This document shows positions 28,622 through 34,183 of a stretch of DNA of 35,295 nt, piece by piece. Below the pieces are notes generated by a model. The model did not search any database, had not been told where the DNA came from, and saw only the letters and a program-made list of their open reading frames with translations. The number at the start of each line of letters is the position of its first letter. The stretch's first letter is position 1. Both the position numbers and the translations under genes were made by a program. The DNA is from Ferruginibacter sp. (GTDB taxonomy: Bacteria > Bacteroidota > Bacteroidia > Chitinophagales > Chitinophagaceae), in the NCBI GenBank assembly GCA_025350645.1, contig JANXXM010000165.1, forward strand, positions 1-35,295. The letters run 5' to 3'.

Positions 28622-28711
28622 AGTGTGTAAATTTTTCGTAACAACAAAGTAAATAACATTTTACCATTAAGTTTGATTTGCGGGGGTTATTTTTGCTGCT
28701 TAACTTTTTAT

Positions 28712-29761
28712 TTGAAAAATATTTTTAAAAAAATTACCAACTGGGAAGCCTGGCCATTTGCATTGTTATATGCGCCCATGGCACCAGTATGGGGCTGGTA
28801 CATGTTGCGAAGCGGGGCGGTTTGGTTTTTTACACCCAGTAATCCTAAACTTACTTTTGGTGGTATGGAGGGCGAACCTAAAAAAGAGATGTATGACCTG
28901 CTGCCAAAAAATCTTTATCCACCTACTTTTAATGTGCTGCCCACGCTTAGGTTTGAAGATGTACTGGCGCAATTAAGTTACAGTAAAATACCGTACCCGC
29001 TTATTGTAAAACCAGAGATAGGAGGGCAGGGGATATTGTTTAGAAAAATAGATAATGAAAATGCATTTAAAAAATACCACGAAAAAGTGCCGGTGCTATA
29101 TATAGTGCAGCAAATGGTAAGTTACCCGGTTGAAGTAAGTGTGTTTCACATTAAACATCCTGCACAAAAAAAAGGAATGGTAACAGGTTTTTTACACAAA
29201 ATTCCATTGCACATTATGGGTGATGGTGTGCATACGCTTGCGCAACTGGTGGCGCAAAACGAAAAAGCAGCAAAACGCCTGAAAGACCTGAACAGCAGGC
29301 ATACAGACAACTGGCATACCATAATACCTGCAGGCGAAAAATATATTTTGAGCTATGCTGCCAATCATAATAAAGGAGCACATTTTATAGATTTAAAGGA
29401 ATACATAAATGATGATTTGGTACAAATTTTTGATAAAATAAGTGTAGAAATAAATGATTTTTTTTATGGCAGGTATGATATTATGTGCACGAGCGTGCAG
29501 GATTTGCTGAAGGGGAAAAATTTTACTATTTTAGAATACAATGGCTGCGGTGCAGAGCCAAACCATTTTTATGATACAGGCTACAGCCTTGGCGGCGCAT
29601 ACAAAGAAATTTTAAAACACTGGGCATGGCTGTATAAAATAAGCCGCTACAATGCTGCAAAAACGGTGAAGCCATGGGAGTTTTTTAAAGGACAAAAATT
29701 TTTGCGGGAAACAAAACAAATGTACCGTATGATGAAAGAGGCAGATGAAAAAATGGACTAA
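28712..29761 (+). CDS. ATP-grasp domain protein (D-Ala-D-Ala ligase-like)
   Basis: Starting from a TTG at 28712 gives 349 residues beginning LKNIFKKITNWEAWPFALLYAPMAP (initial residues only); a TTG at 28673 would add 13 residues and no ATG is available. The middle and C-terminus form an ATP-grasp fold: the ATP lysine K100 in IVKPEIGGQG, then IVQQMVSYPVEVSVFHI, the IMGDGVHTL loop (168-176), GRYDI (253-257) and the metal ligands E275 and N277 in ILEYNGCGAEPNHFYD. The family joins a carboxylate to an amine or thiol via an acyl phosphate. The substrate is unknown; no peptidoglycan or peptide-biosynthesis gene is adjacent. The N-terminal ~40 residues are hydrophobic (WPFALLYAPMAPVWGWYML), suggesting a membrane association. 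Confidence 0.8.
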   Translation: MKNIFKKITNWEAWPFALLYAPMAPVWGWYMLRSGAVWFFTPSNPKLTFGGMEGEPKKEMYDLLPKNLYPPTFNVLPTLRFEDVLAQLSYSKIPYPLIVKPEIGGQGILFRKIDNENAFKKYHEKVPVLYIVQQMVSYPVEVSVFHIKHPAQKKGMVTGFLHKIPLHIMGDGVHTLAQLVAQNEKAAKRLKDLNSRHTDNWHTIIPAGEKYILSYAANHNKGAHFIDLKEYINDDLVQIFDKISVEINDFFYGRYDIMCTSVQDLLKGKNFTILEYNGCGAEPNHFYDTGYSLGGAYKEILKHWAWLYKISRYNAAKTVKPWEFFKGQKFLRETKQMYRMMKEADEKMD

Positions 29762-29764
29762 ATT

Positions 29765-30907
29765 TTAAAAAGGATTACCATGGGTAAGCCGTATGATTTT
29801 TTTTGTAAAAGCGGGCCACACTTTCATTACAATTAAAAATATATTGGTAAAACTTTCTTTACCAAAAAAACGTTGTATAAATCTTCCCATCTTTATTCTT
29901 TTGCCGAAATTCTTTTTCCAGTCTTTACTATAATTATTTTCTAATACTGCCCGGCTTATATTTTGCTGCAAATATGATGAAATATGCCCTGCTGCCAGTT
30001 TTGCGGTATGCAATGCAATGCTCATTCCATTACCGCAAAGTGGGGTTATCATACCTGCTGCATCGCCCAGCATTAATACATGATCCTGTACCCGCGTTTT
30101 ATTACTAAAAGAAACCTGCGAAATAACGAGGGGCTTTTCGTATAACTTTTCTGCTGTTAAAAATATATTTTTTAAAGCTAGATTTTTATATAAAACGGTT
30201 TCTTCCATTTGCTCAATAGAATTATTGTTATTTTTTAAATTAGATGCCTTGGTGAGATAGCAAAGACAATATTTTTCATCTTCTATTTTAGATAAACCAC
30301 AGTAGCCATCTTTAAAATTGTGCAATGCTACTTCATCTGCGGTAAATGGGCCCGTAACATGGTATTTTACACCGATGTAATTGTTTAACCTTGTATTATT
30401 TTCTGTTAAAAAAGAGCGCTTCCATTTTGCATCCAGGTTGCTTCGCTTGCCATAAGAGCCACAGCAGGTATTGCTTTCAAATATTCCTTTTTCAGTTTTG
30501 ATGCTGAAAATATTATTCAAAAAATCTACATTTTCAACCTTGCAATTATTAAAAACCATTACGCCATTTTTTTCAGCTATTTTTTTCAGATCATAGTCTA
30601 ACGTGAACCTGCTTATACCAAAACCACCCAAGGGTAAATGCGCTTTTACATTTTTACTTTTTGCAGAGGTAACCAATATCCTATTAATAAAGGGAAGATG
30701 CATAGTTGCCAGCGAAACACCCAGTTCTTCAGTTAAAAAATTCCAGCTTTCCATGCTAATGTATTCTCCACAAACTTTATGGGCGGGGTAAGTTCCTTTT
30801 TCAAAAAGCACAACTTTATATCCTTTTTTTGCAAGTAGTATGGCACAACTTAATCCGGCTAAGCCGCCACCAATAACTGCTGCATCATATATTGTTTTTT
30901 CGCTCAT
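29765..30907 (-). CDS. FAD-dependent oxidoreductase of the geranylgeranyl reductase-like family
   Basis: A 380-residue flavoprotein with the FAD Rossmann motif VIGGGLAGLSCAILLAKKG (11-29) followed by VVLFEKG and HKVCGEYIS, the latter a signature of geranylgeranyl-reductase-like and related hydroxylase families. MLGDAAGMITPLCGNGMSIAL near the C-terminus is the second FAD-binding motif (GDAAG). It is the last gene of a four-gene operon with UbiA, a type III PKS and a methyltransferase; its ATG overlaps the methyltransferase stop by four bases. In this setting it could hydroxylate the aromatic product (compare SrsC in Streptomyces phenolic-lipid synthesis) or saturate a prenyl chain. The sequence does not decide between these. 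It is convergent with the ATP-grasp gene, three bases apart. Confidence 0.88.
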   Translation of the reverse strand: MSEKTIYDAAVIGGGLAGLSCAILLAKKGYKVVLFEKGTYPAHKVCGEYISMESWNFLTEELGVSLATMHLPFINRILVTSAKSKNVKAHLPLGGFGISRFTLDYDLKKIAEKNGVMVFNNCKVENVDFLNNIFSIKTEKGIFESNTCCGSYGKRSNLDAKWKRSFLTENNTRLNNYIGVKYHVTGPFTADEVALHNFKDGYCGLSKIEDEKYCLCYLTKASNLKNNNNSIEQMEETVLYKNLALKNIFLTAEKLYEKPLVISQVSFSNKTRVQDHVLMLGDAAGMITPLCGNGMSIALHTAKLAAGHISSYLQQNISRAVLENNYSKDWKKNFGKRIKMGRFIQRFFGKESFTNIFLIVMKVWPAFTKKIIRLTHGNPF

Positions 30908-31593
30908 TTTTTACAAATTAAAAGATACCGAAATGCCCATTTCCATTGTATAGAATAATTTTTTATCCCAGCTTTTTCAAATAAAACCTGCCATTCTTTT
31001 TTTGTGAAACCACGTGCTACGGAAAGGCAGGCGTCGTTCTTTACAAGATAAGATCCTGAAAATATTTTCGTAAGCCATTTTATGAGGTAATAAGCTACAA
31101 TATTGCGTTGCAGGTCGTTTATAAAAAAACCTTTGCTGCACTTTTCCTTCATCCATTGCAGCATAAATACCAGTTGCTCATCAGTAAAATGATGGCAAAA
31201 AAGGGAGGAGAAAATAATATCCGGATTGCTGGTAAAGGTTGCTTTGCTATAATCGCTGGCTATCCATTTTGCCGGCAGTGCCGGGTATTGCTGTTGTGCA
31301 TACTGGGTACAAGTTTCTTTAAGATCTATACCAGTATAATATATTGAACTATTTTTTATTTTTGTTGAAATTGCTTTAAGATTATCTCCGCCACCGCAGC
31401 CTATTTCGCATATATGAAGTGTGGTTTTTTCATTACCTATAATAGTTTTTACTCCAGCTACAGTTATGGCATGCCCACCCAGCAAACTGTTGATGGTATT
31501 TAGTTCTTTCAAGGTTTGCTTAATATCTTCAAACGGAATATCGTCCGCATCCAATAGTTCTTTTTTATATGATCTGTTGCGGAGTTTAATCAT
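30904..31593 (-). CDS. SAM-dependent methyltransferase
   Basis: A 229-residue class I methyltransferase with motif I HICEIGCGGGDNL (60-72), followed by a YTGIDLKETCTQYA segment (the acidic end of beta 2), then DIIFSSLFCHHFTDEQLVFML, where the DIIFSSLFCHH stretch corresponds to motif IV/post-IV. The C-terminal NDLQRNIVAYYLIKWLTKIF resembles small methyltransferases of ubiquinone/menaquinone-like and polyketide-tailoring types. It overlaps the type III PKS gene by 8 bases and the FAD gene by 4, so it belongs to one operon and probably acts on the PKS product, at carbon or oxygen. In known phenolic-lipid clusters a methyltransferase of this size performs that step. Confidence 0.88.
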   Translation of the reverse strand: MIKLRNRSYKKELLDADDIPFEDIKQTLKELNTINSLLGGHAITVAGVKTIIGNEKTTLHICEIGCGGGDNLKAISTKIKNSSIYYTGIDLKETCTQYAQQQYPALPAKWIASDYSKATFTSNPDIIFSSLFCHHFTDEQLVFMLQWMKEKCSKGFFINDLQRNIVAYYLIKWLTKIFSGSYLVKNDACLSVARGFTKKEWQVLFEKAGIKNYSIQWKWAFRYLLICKK

Positions 31594-32683
31594 AGGTTGC
31601 AGTAAAAGTTTCCATGGTTAGACCTGGCCCAAATGCAGCGCCAAATAAGGTTTGCGGGGTTGTAAAATTATGCTCCTCCATTTCGTGCAGTATTTTTTGC
31701 AGCACAAATAAAATGGTAGGGGAGCTCATATTCCCCATATCCTTTAGTACATCATAGGAATATTGTAACTCTTTTTTTTGTAACTGCATACTTTCTGCAA
31801 TAGTATCCAGTATTTTTTTGCCGCCGGGGTGTATACACCAGTGTGTAATTTCTGCTGTGGTTTTGCCTGCTTTCGCCAATGCTTTTTGTACGAGTTCTTT
31901 AAAATTTTCCTTTATAAGTTCTGGTATATAACCGCTAAGCGTCATTAAAAAACCAGTGCTGGATAATGCCCATGCCATATCATTTTTTCCGTTAAAAGAT
32001 ACTTCGGCAAAAAAACTTTTTATACGCAGACCTTTTCCGGCATTATCATTTTGTATTAACATAGCTGCACATCCATCGCCAAATAAAAGGGATGAGGTAA
32101 TATTATCTATAGAAATTTCTTTTTGAAAATGAAGGGTACAAAGTTCTGTACAAACCACTACCACATTTGCATGTGGCGAGGTAGCACAAAATGCATCAGC
32201 AAGTTTTAAGCCATGTATAGCTGCATAACAACCCATAAAATTTACAGAAGTTCGAATAATATTTTTAGGAAGATCCATAGCTTCCATAAGCTGCAAATCC
32301 AGTCCTGGTGCGGTCATCCCCGTACAGCTTACGGTAATAAGATGAGTAATTTCAGCTTTGTCAATTTTATTTTTAATACAATCTTCAATTACTTTTTTAG
32401 AAAGGGCCGGGGCTTGTTCATTGTAAATTTCCATTCGTTTGCCTATAGAGGGAAAAGGCTCCAGCATCTCATCAGCAGAAAAGAGTTTTCTTTCGCTTGC
32501 AGCAGATGAAAAATCGGGTACTACGGAATAACGGTTTTCTATACCACTTTTTTTATATAAAAAACGGAGTTTGCGGGTATCGGTTTCGTCTTTACTGTAA
32601 ATATTGTCTGCAAAGGAAAAGAGGTCATTCTGCCTGTGTTTATATAATGGAACGCCAGAAGCTATAGAAGTTATTTTACTCAA
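31586..32683 (-). CDS. Type III polyketide synthase (chalcone/stilbene synthase-like)
   Basis: A 365-residue ketosynthase that condenses malonyl-CoA units on an acyl-CoA starter without a carrier protein. The catalytic triad is intact: C152 in NFMGCYAAIHGLK, H285 in WCIHPGGKKIL and N318 in GNMSSPTILFVL, aligned with Cys164, His303 and Asn336 of plant chalcone synthase. TVSCTGMTAPGLDL, TSSLLFGDGCAAMLI and the C-terminal FGAAFGPGLTMET also fit. The residue after the active Cys is Tyr rather than Phe, and the short substrate-lid regions hint at an alkylresorcinol- or alkylpyrone-type enzyme, but product class is inference. It is second in an operon after UbiA (4-base overlap) and before the methyltransferase. 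Confidence 0.92.
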   Translation of the reverse strand: MSKITSIASGVPLYKHRQNDLFSFADNIYSKDETDTRKLRFLYKKSGIENRYSVVPDFSSAASERKLFSADEMLEPFPSIGKRMEIYNEQAPALSKKVIEDCIKNKIDKAEITHLITVSCTGMTAPGLDLQLMEAMDLPKNIIRTSVNFMGCYAAIHGLKLADAFCATSPHANVVVVCTELCTLHFQKEISIDNITSSLLFGDGCAAMLIQNDNAGKGLRIKSFFAEVSFNGKNDMAWALSSTGFLMTLSGYIPELIKENFKELVQKALAKAGKTTAEITHWCIHPGGKKILDTIAESMQLQKKELQYSYDVLKDMGNMSSPTILFVLQKILHEMEEHNFTTPQTLFGAAFGPGLTMETFTATYD

Positions 32684-33552
32684 AATTGTTCAATAATTAA
32701 TAAGGTGATAAAAGCTGCATTTGTGCACAATGAAGTAACGATGTTCATGCGCAAAGAGTTTTTAAAATTAGCAGAACTTGTATTTTTTATTACAGCATGG
32801 TACCACCAAAAAAAATAAATCAATACTGGGGTCATAATAACTATTAATAATAAAAAACGAACCAATTCCAGGTTGGATGCAAAATAATAACCCAATATTA
32901 TAAGCGCAATAGAATAAGTAATTGCCGTAAATATAAATGTGCCTTTATAACCGAGTAAGCTACTTATGGTTTTTACACCGTCAGCTTCATCCTGCCTGTG
33001 CTGGTATATTTGTGTGAGTGGGTAAACGCTGCCTACAAGCAACGAACTGGCAATAACAGGTAATACAGGTATAGCTAGGGTTTTAGATATACTGCAACCA
33101 TGATAAACTAAAAAAAATACCAGGCCTCCCTGACAGGTGGCCGCTAGCAAAAAACTGGTAACAGGGTATTTTTTTAAACGAATGCCCCGGTAACTGTATG
33201 CTTTGGATGCAGCAATAAAAAAAACAATACCTGCTACAAAATAAATGCTGATGAATAAACTTGTGGCAATGGCCATTGCATCTAGCAATATAGAGATATG
33301 GTATAATTGTGTGGTAGGCGGTAAGGGATTTTTTACCCCACCAATACTTTCAGTATCCCTGTCCATAAAACTATTGTAAGCATTGCTGCCAGGGTATAAC
33401 ATTAAATGAAGTATAAAAAAAATAACTACAGATCGTACAACACTAATATGCGTTAATTGCGAAAGCGCAAACCAAAAAACAGGCATTAAAAAAAAAGAAA
33501 ATGGTATTCTCAATAATTGAATCGTAGAAAATTTTAATATACCTTTTTTCAT
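32680..33552 (-). CDS. UbiA-family prenyltransferase
   Basis: A 290-residue integral membrane protein with about eight or nine helices. The first Asp-rich motif is SNAYNSFMDRDTESIGG (around 56-72: N60, D64, D66), and the second is QIYQHRQDEADGVKTISSLLG (181-201: D188, D191); both coordinate the Mg-pyrophosphate of an isoprenyl diphosphate. UbiA enzymes attach polyprenyl groups to aromatic acceptors. The first gene of the operon, its stop overlaps the type III PKS start by four bases. The natural inference is that it prenylates the aromatic product of the PKS, although a role with another acceptor cannot be excluded. It is read divergently from the yceI gene, 88 bases away. Confidence 0.88.
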   Translation of the reverse strand: MKKGILKFSTIQLLRIPFSFFLMPVFWFALSQLTHISVVRSVVIFFILHLMLYPGSNAYNSFMDRDTESIGGVKNPLPPTTQLYHISILLDAMAIATSLFISIYFVAGIVFFIAASKAYSYRGIRLKKYPVTSFLLAATCQGGLVFFLVYHGCSISKTLAIPVLPVIASSLLVGSVYPLTQIYQHRQDEADGVKTISSLLGYKGTFIFTAITYSIALIILGYYFASNLELVRFLLLIVIMTPVLIYFFWWYHAVIKNTSSANFKNSLRMNIVTSLCTNAAFITLLIIEQF

Positions 33553-33640: not shown

Positions 33641-34183
33641 ATGAAAAGTTTATTATTTTTTGTAATAACCTTGCTCACTTTTAAAGCCGGTAATGCTCAA
33701 AAAGTTTTCACACCAATAGATGATGGAAGCAAAGTTCATTTTGTTATAAAAAACCTGGGTATTAATACCGGTGGCGATCTTGCGGGTTTAAAAGGAGCTA
33801 TAAAATTTGATGCTAAAAAACCTGATGCATCTTCTTTTGATGTATTAGCGGCTGTATCTACCATTGATACAGATAATGACCGCCGGGATGGGCATTTAAA
33901 AAATGAGGATTATTTTGATGCAGAAAAATATCCCACCATACATATTGCAAGCACTAGCATTACACAGGGAAGCGATCTTAAAAACTTTAATTTTAAAGGA
34001 AATCTTACTATTAAAGACATTACAAAACCTATTGAATTTGCATTTACAGCAGAGGGTGTAGAGGGCGGAGCACTTTTTACCAGCAGCGAATTTGAAATAA
34101 ACAGGGTTGATTTTGGTGTAGGTAAAGAAAGCGCTACTATGAGTGATAAGGTAAAAATAAAATTAAAAGTATTTGCAAAATAA
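33641..34183 (+). CDS. YceI-family (polyisoprenoid-binding-like) periplasmic protein
   Basis: A 180-residue secreted protein with signal peptide MKSLLFFVITLLTFKAGNA, probably cleaved before QK. The mature part shows the YceI lipocalin-like barrel pattern: VHFVIKNLGINTGGDLAGLKGAIKFDAKKPD, DTDNDRRDGHLKNEDYFDAEKYPTIHIASTSI, LTIKDITKPIEFAFTAEG, and FEINRVDFGVG (each shown in part). The RD.HLK..DYFD and Y P.I.F-type segments are the family hallmark. YceI proteins bind isoprenoid or amphipathic lipids in the periplasm. Its gene is divergent from the UbiA-led operon, so a link to a prenylated product is tempting but unproven. A terminator follows. Confidence 0.92.
   Translation: MKSLLFFVITLLTFKAGNAQKVFTPIDDGSKVHFVIKNLGINTGGDLAGLKGAIKFDAKKPDASSFDVLAAVSTIDTDNDRRDGHLKNEDYFDAEKYPTIHIASTSITQGSDLKNFNFKGNLTIKDITKPIEFAFTAEGVEGGALFTSSEFEINRVDFGVGKESATMSDKVKIKLKVFAK

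Follow-up and report, generated by a model that had tools for sequence, protein, structure and literature searches.

Comparison of a four-gene Bacteroidota operon, encoding a type III polyketide synthase, a methyltransferase, an FAD-dependent oxidoreductase and a UbiA-like protein, with known phenolic lipid operons

The operons of the picocyanobacterial hierridins (hidABC) and their planctomycete counterparts encode a type III polyketide synthase (PKS), a methyltransferase (MT) and an FAD oxidoreductase in one operon, and in those described in the available text the order is MT-FAD-PKS with no UbiA gene (PMC10896814). According to that text, the planctomycete PKSs formed pentadecyl- and heptadecylresorcinols (C15/C17) in a heterologous host, co-expression of the Gimesia MT and FAD enzyme added one methyl group, probably on carbon, the role of the FAD enzyme was left open, and in Actinoplanes the alkylresorcinols formed by AgqA undergo prenylation and hydroxylation (PMC10896814). 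The agq cluster of Actinoplanes is reported to combine a type III PKS with prenyltransferase, hydroxylase and methyltransferase activities. Its product in Actinoplanes missouriensis was reportedly identified by Awakawa and colleagues in 2011 as an alkyl-O-dihydrogeranyl-methoxyhydroquinone. SrsB and the other srs-type methyltransferases are ICMT-type enzymes. The srs-type operons of Actinobacteria encode a PKS, a methyltransferase and an oxidoreductase that make an alkylbenzoquinone electron carrier, and polyketide quinones of this origin are reported as alternate electron carriers in mycobacteria and Streptomyces; the words 'ubia' and 'prenyl' have no occurrences in the accessible part of the article (PMC9927152). 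At the loseolamycin locus of Micromonospora endolithica, a UbiA-family gene, a putative methyltransferase and an acyl-CoA dehydrogenase (a flavoenzyme class) lie by losA, whereas the scheme, in the portion available, requires losA and host fatty acids alone (PMC7587189).

The window, the whole 35,295-nucleotide stretch of Ferruginibacter sp. DNA analysed here (contig JANXXM010000165.1), was originally predicted to contain four overlapping minus-strand genes, for a UbiA prenyltransferase, a type III PKS, a methyltransferase and an FAD oxidoreductase, that form a single co-translated pathway. The open reading frames and the Pfam matches agreed with the four assignments. The genes and their two neighbours are:

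32680..33552, minus strand: UbiA-like membrane prenyltransferase (290 aa; Pfam UbiA), the first gene of the operon
31586..32683, minus strand: type III PKS (365 aa), with a TTG start within the TTGA overlap
30904..31593, minus strand: Rossmann-type SAM methyltransferase (229 aa; Methyltransf_25)
29765..30907, minus strand: FAD-dependent oxidoreductase of 380 aa, a member of the geranylgeranyl-reductase/halogenase/FixC superfamily
33641..34183, plus strand: YceI family lipid-binding protein gene, divergent and 88 bases from the operon, a possible partner
28673..29761, plus strand: 362-aa protein with no Pfam match, converging on the operon

The predicted overlaps of 4, 8 and 4 bases were read directly from the UbiA/PKS, PKS/MT and MT/FAD junctions, which are TTGA, ATGATTAA and ATGA, respectively. 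The operon is flanked by the divergent YceI gene on one side and by the convergent gene ending at 29761 on the other. The convergent gene product gave weak ATP-grasp-like NCBIfam matches (cyanophycin synthetase, 1.4e-7), and its relatives adjoin the operon in two other loci (L059 and L084).

The PKS, the only one of its sort in its genome, matched both the N-terminal (84.8 bits) and the C-terminal (94.3 bits) Chal_sti_synt domains and has the expected Cys152-His285-Asn318 triad, invariant in 133/133 aligned PKSs, and so has the domains and catalytic residues of a type III PKS. The MT matched Methyltransf_25 (38.8 bits) and has the predicted motif I (EIGCGGGD), while the FAD enzyme scored over the cut-offs for DAO, Lycopene_cycl and FAD_binding_3 and contains the FAD motifs GGGLAG...E and GDAAG, also as predicted.

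The operon had been likened to srsABC. The parallel holds for the set of PKS, methyltransferase and oxidoreductase, but srsABC is not the nearest match: the window has a UbiA gene, its MT is Rossmann-type, whereas srsABC, pkqABC and bpsAB have an ICMT-type membrane methyltransferase beside the PKS, and within the phylum the PKSs accompanied by an ICMT form a separate clade. Membership of the srs type was rejected because there is no ICMT. Judged by gene content and predicted activities, the hidABC/planctomycete operons and the agq cluster are the better analogues. Homologous PKS, MT and FAD genes stand side by side in the window and in Paludisphaera (identities of 32%, 25% at 7e-18 and 23% at 2e-13, respectively), although the window has the order UbiA-PKS-MT-FAD. 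The agq cluster, from another phylum, is reported to have the same four activities, the likeness being one of predicted activities and published description; its products give the predicted product class a precedent in another phylum. The losA neighbourhood has no FAD oxidoreductase of the window type among the genes listed in the available text (PMC7587189).

A plasmid collection, used to look beyond the phylum, contained PKS relatives in 184 records. In the four examined among the 30 matches listed, from Psychrobacter, Roseomonas, Deinococcus and Paludisphaera, an MT and an FAD gene were invariably found beside the PKS (4/4). The window PKS and MT matched all four loci (32-38% and 24-27% identity) and the FAD enzyme three of them (BLASTP, E < 1e-10), the Deinococcus enzyme belonging to another FAD family. 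The window UbiA had no match in this collection at E 0.01. On these sequence comparisons, PKS-MT-FAD is a cross-phylum core, and the operon UbiA looks like a regional add-on of Chitinophagaceae and some other Bacteroidota.

Among 117 Chitinophagaceae genomes, 55, including the source genome, had a PKS match at E < 1e-70, and 53 wide neighbourhoods were examined. All four genes were present in 44/53, UbiA lay by the PKS in 51/53, and the remaining two had PKS-MT-FAD without UbiA. A phylum-wide set of 133 loci (120 hand-picked regions, 13 named loci and the window, minus one duplicate) was sorted as follows:

Type A, UbiA by the PKS: 73/133 loci
Type B, FAD-MT-PKS with a ketosynthase (KS) and a dehydratase, Flavobacteriaceae-type: 25/133 loci
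Type C, PKS-MT-FAD: 12/133 loci
Type D, PKS-ICMT: 10/133 loci
Type E, PKS-MT with another FAD family: 6/133 loci
Outside types A-E: 7/133 loci

Type A consisted of 51 collinear loci on one strand, 7 with all four genes and UbiA opposed, and 15 with fewer of the four, some of which sit at contig ends. In the collinear loci, UbiA-PKS, PKS-MT and MT-FAD overlaps were found in 41, 32 and 34 of 51, respectively, counts that are overstated because the ORF finder takes the first possible start. The neighbours outside the operon vary between most loci and the four genes stay together. Cultured carriers include Paraflavisolibacter caeni LB-8 and Pollutibacter soli JS81 (L064 and L065). Since the same order recurs in 51/133 loci, the grouping goes beyond chance. 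Synteny in related genomes had been chosen beforehand as the test on which the single-pathway reading could fail, and with this degree of collinearity the reading stood. One protein, P0037 (597 aa), is an apparent PKS-MT fusion, either a true fusion or the result of a sequencing frameshift. The collinear loci and the fusion bear out the single co-translated pathway originally predicted, and the four genes almost certainly act together in it.

In the PKS tree (FastTree), types B and D each formed one clade, with support of 100 and 98, and the presence of UbiA needed 6 changes. ICMT-like genes, sought with our own profile in the 133 loci, were found only in the 10 type D loci, one of them Pfam-confirmed. 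In all 25 type B loci a FabZ-like dehydratase and a KS resembling FabF lay by the PKS, families that were assigned on the proteins of L112 and L114, and 22 had a PPTase. In both type B loci that were read, an ORF identified by eye as ACP-like lies between the KS and PPTase genes, downstream of the PKS:

L112:4493-4753, minus strand: ACP-like ORF
L114:10066-10320, plus strand: ACP-like ORF

Judging by these genes, type B loci may bring their own acyl-chain supply. UbiA occurred together with a KS or dehydratase in 0/133 loci, which suggests that the two are alternative tails on one headgroup, although shared ancestry of the clades could explain the pattern too.

This mutual exclusion raises the possibility that the ring made by the PKS is short-chain or malonyl-primed and has its sole lipid tail supplied by UbiA, as for the chorismate-derived rings in ubiquinone synthesis, the tail in Flavobacteriaceae-type loci coming from their own ACP-KS-dehydratase set. 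The PKS pocket bears on this point. The window residues T121, A125 and C182 are the same as T144, A148 and C205 of PKS18, one of the closest solved structures, while L21 and F186 are bulkier than the PKS18 residues A52 and A209, as a small ring would predict; C120, A125, C182 and H185 are common to the window and Paludisphaera enzymes. By sequence, the signals on starter length are mixed. At positions 125, 182 and 185 of the pocket, type B and type A PKSs have different residues, again in the direction of a small-ring headgroup. The types correspond to clades, however, B forming a single one, so that shared ancestry alone could yield both patterns, and type C PKSs have the type A letters at these positions, yet UbiA does not adjoin the PKS. 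Moreover, the related planctomycete enzymes take long chains, as stated in the available text (PMC10896814), and the small-ring headgroup seems rather unlikely.

PKS18 makes alkylpyrones, according to the part of the source at hand (PMC6274091), and an alkylpyrone decorated by the other enzymes could likewise be the product here in place of a resorcinol. In the corresponding planctomycete operons, however, the PKS products are alkylresorcinols according to the text available (PMC10896814), and an FAD hydroxylase and a UbiA enzyme would suit a phenol better, which makes a pyrone quite unlikely.

The UbiA-like protein was retained in the UbiA superfamily because it matched the curated Pfam model (54.4 bits, cut-off 34.2). 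It had been credited with both Asp-rich motifs, a claim that was only partly correct: N60, D64 and D188 are kept, but position 68 is Glu and position 184 is Gln, so that the canonical NxxxDxxxD and DxxxD pair is reduced to N60xxxD64 and Q184xxxD188. With the register set against structure 4od4, motif 1 is N60-S61-x-x-D64-x-D66, and N60, S61, D64 and D66 are invariant in 36 aligned relatives; the usual last Asp, at position 68, is present in 1/36. In motif 2, Gln184 replaces the usual first Asp and D188 is kept, each in 35/36 with one masked. The claim of prenyl transfer was lowered on account of these departures from the canonical Asp motifs. The profile matched one solved structure only (4od4, E 3e-5), and the Y119-S120...R125-L-K127 motif was kept among the aligned relatives. 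The predicted structure had a mean pLDDT of 96.6, and its helices were taken to form nine transmembrane segments, the second ending in motif 1 and the sixth in motif 2. No NCBIfam match was found for the window protein; three relatives matched weakly, far below the cut-off.

The altered Asp motifs, these sub-cut-off NCBIfam matches and the lack of a PKS-adjacent UbiA gene in types B, C, D and E would all be consistent with a protein that does not prenylate the PKS product but uses another donor, or acts on a different substrate within this lipid pathway. The 51/53 same-family loci with UbiA by the PKS, the frames that overlap in 41/51 collinear loci, the conserved Y-S...R-L-K motif and the confident helical model argue against it, and we regard this alternative as unlikely. 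The source genome encodes four further UbiA proteins, all with higher scores, one adjoining cytochrome oxidase genes and one, picked by its motifs, that we take to be the menaquinone enzyme. The operon protein was accordingly rejected as the heme O or menaquinone enzyme of the cell.

In NCBIfam the FAD enzyme best matched TIGR02032, a geranylgeranyl reductase family (96.6 bits, under the cut-off of 158.8), and the agq product is said to carry a dihydrogeranyl group, observations that would fit a prenyl reductase saturating the group added by UbiA. Homologous FAD genes, however, accompany the PKS where no UbiA adjoins it, in 25 loci of type B and 12 of type C, and a prenyl reductase was set lower, as very unlikely, because they persist in UbiA-free loci. 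Both the MT and the FAD enzyme were placed on the ring, which the FAD enzyme would hydroxylate, since in types B and C both genes accompany a PKS that has no UbiA beside it.

In 11/133 loci a YceI gene (at least 90 bits with our own profile) lay no more than 2.5 kb from the operon, against about 0.8 expected at a mean of 5.96 such genes per genome (167 counted over 28 genomes). The expectation is rough, in that the loci share ancestry and that six of these 28 genomes, apart from the source genome, were chosen for having the adjacency. On the PKS tree, nine of the 11 cases require 6 changes. In five of the six other adjacency genomes (the exception being G092), the best match to the window YceI was the copy adjacent to the PKS. 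Genomes without the adjacency hold YceI copies elsewhere, one 51% identical to that of the window, and on this account the link between YceI and the operon appears loose. A lipid/isoprenoid-binding protein gene is described in the available text for the planctomycete-type operon of 'Saltatorellus ferox' (PMC10896814); a search of open-licence papers tying YceI to isoprenoid and polyketide found nothing relevant.

The preferred reading is that the chain PKS, FAD enzyme, MT and UbiA makes a membrane phenolic lipid, and for the whole chain we hold this somewhat better than an even chance. The PKS, of established class, would condense an acyl starter with malonyl-CoA and close a resorcinol-type ring; the FAD enzyme would hydroxylate or oxidise the ring to a hydroquinone or quinone headgroup; the MT would methylate the ring or a hydroxyl; and the UbiA-like enzyme, in the weakest step, might attach an isoprenoid group, with a polyprenyl diphosphate as donor. 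In some species a YceI protein may act as periplasmic carrier of the lipid. A methylated, oxidised, perhaps prenylated phenolic lipid is a plausible product class, with an alkylresorcinol or quinone as the best guess.

Several observations led us to this proposal, 1) the collinear loci, the constancy of UbiA by the PKS in the family, the UbiA-PKS overlaps and the P0037 fusion, 2) the grouping of PKS-MT-FAD homologues in other phyla, where planctomycete operons, as reported in the text available, gave alkylresorcinols, and 3) the retained Y-S...R-L-K motif, the confident UbiA model and the recurrence of YceI. It is weakened by the degenerate UbiA motifs, the single structure match and the mixed pocket signals, as well as by the FAD role left open in planctomycetes in the same partial text, the two family loci lacking UbiA and the differing Deinococcus FAD family. 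In the open-licence literature searched, no described product was found for the four-gene set in Bacteroidota.

The operon is real and widely conserved, and the kind of pathway is known from other bacteria; the UbiA-bearing version is new, as are the recurrence of YceI beside the operon and the dehydratase-ketosynthase set that replaces UbiA in Flavobacteriaceae-type loci. To our knowledge, Bacteroidota are usually regarded as menaquinone-only, and a redox-active quinone product would be a second quinone in the phylum. It is conceivable, though improbable, that Bacteroidota make a polyketide-derived isoprenoid quinone, with a PKS-MT-FAD headgroup and either an isoprenoid tail from UbiA or an acyl tail from ACP, KS and dehydratase, carried by YceI and acting alongside menaquinone as a conditional electron carrier or antioxidant, in parallel to the mycobacterial polyketide quinones. 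Bacteroidota type III PKS loci are now sorted into architectures, and the one with UbiA is tied to a testable prenylated-lipid hypothesis with YceI as a possible carrier. Type III PKSs account for 9% and 10.74% of Flavobacteriaceae clusters in two surveys, whose accessible text names no product (PMC7440613, PMC10734526), and the ACP-KS-PPTase set would be a dedicated acyl supply in this very common cluster type.

Two variations in gene content were also seen. A protein of 480-500 aa with no Pfam or NCBIfam match (cluster c9; L061:10933-12393 and five other loci) directly follows the FAD gene in several loci, and a MarR regulator is often encoded nearby. In three loci of uncultured Bacteroidetes (L069, L070 and L071), UbiA and PKS are followed by genes for a secreted esterase-like (BD-FAE) protein and for an HI0933-like flavoprotein, which replace the MT and FAD genes.
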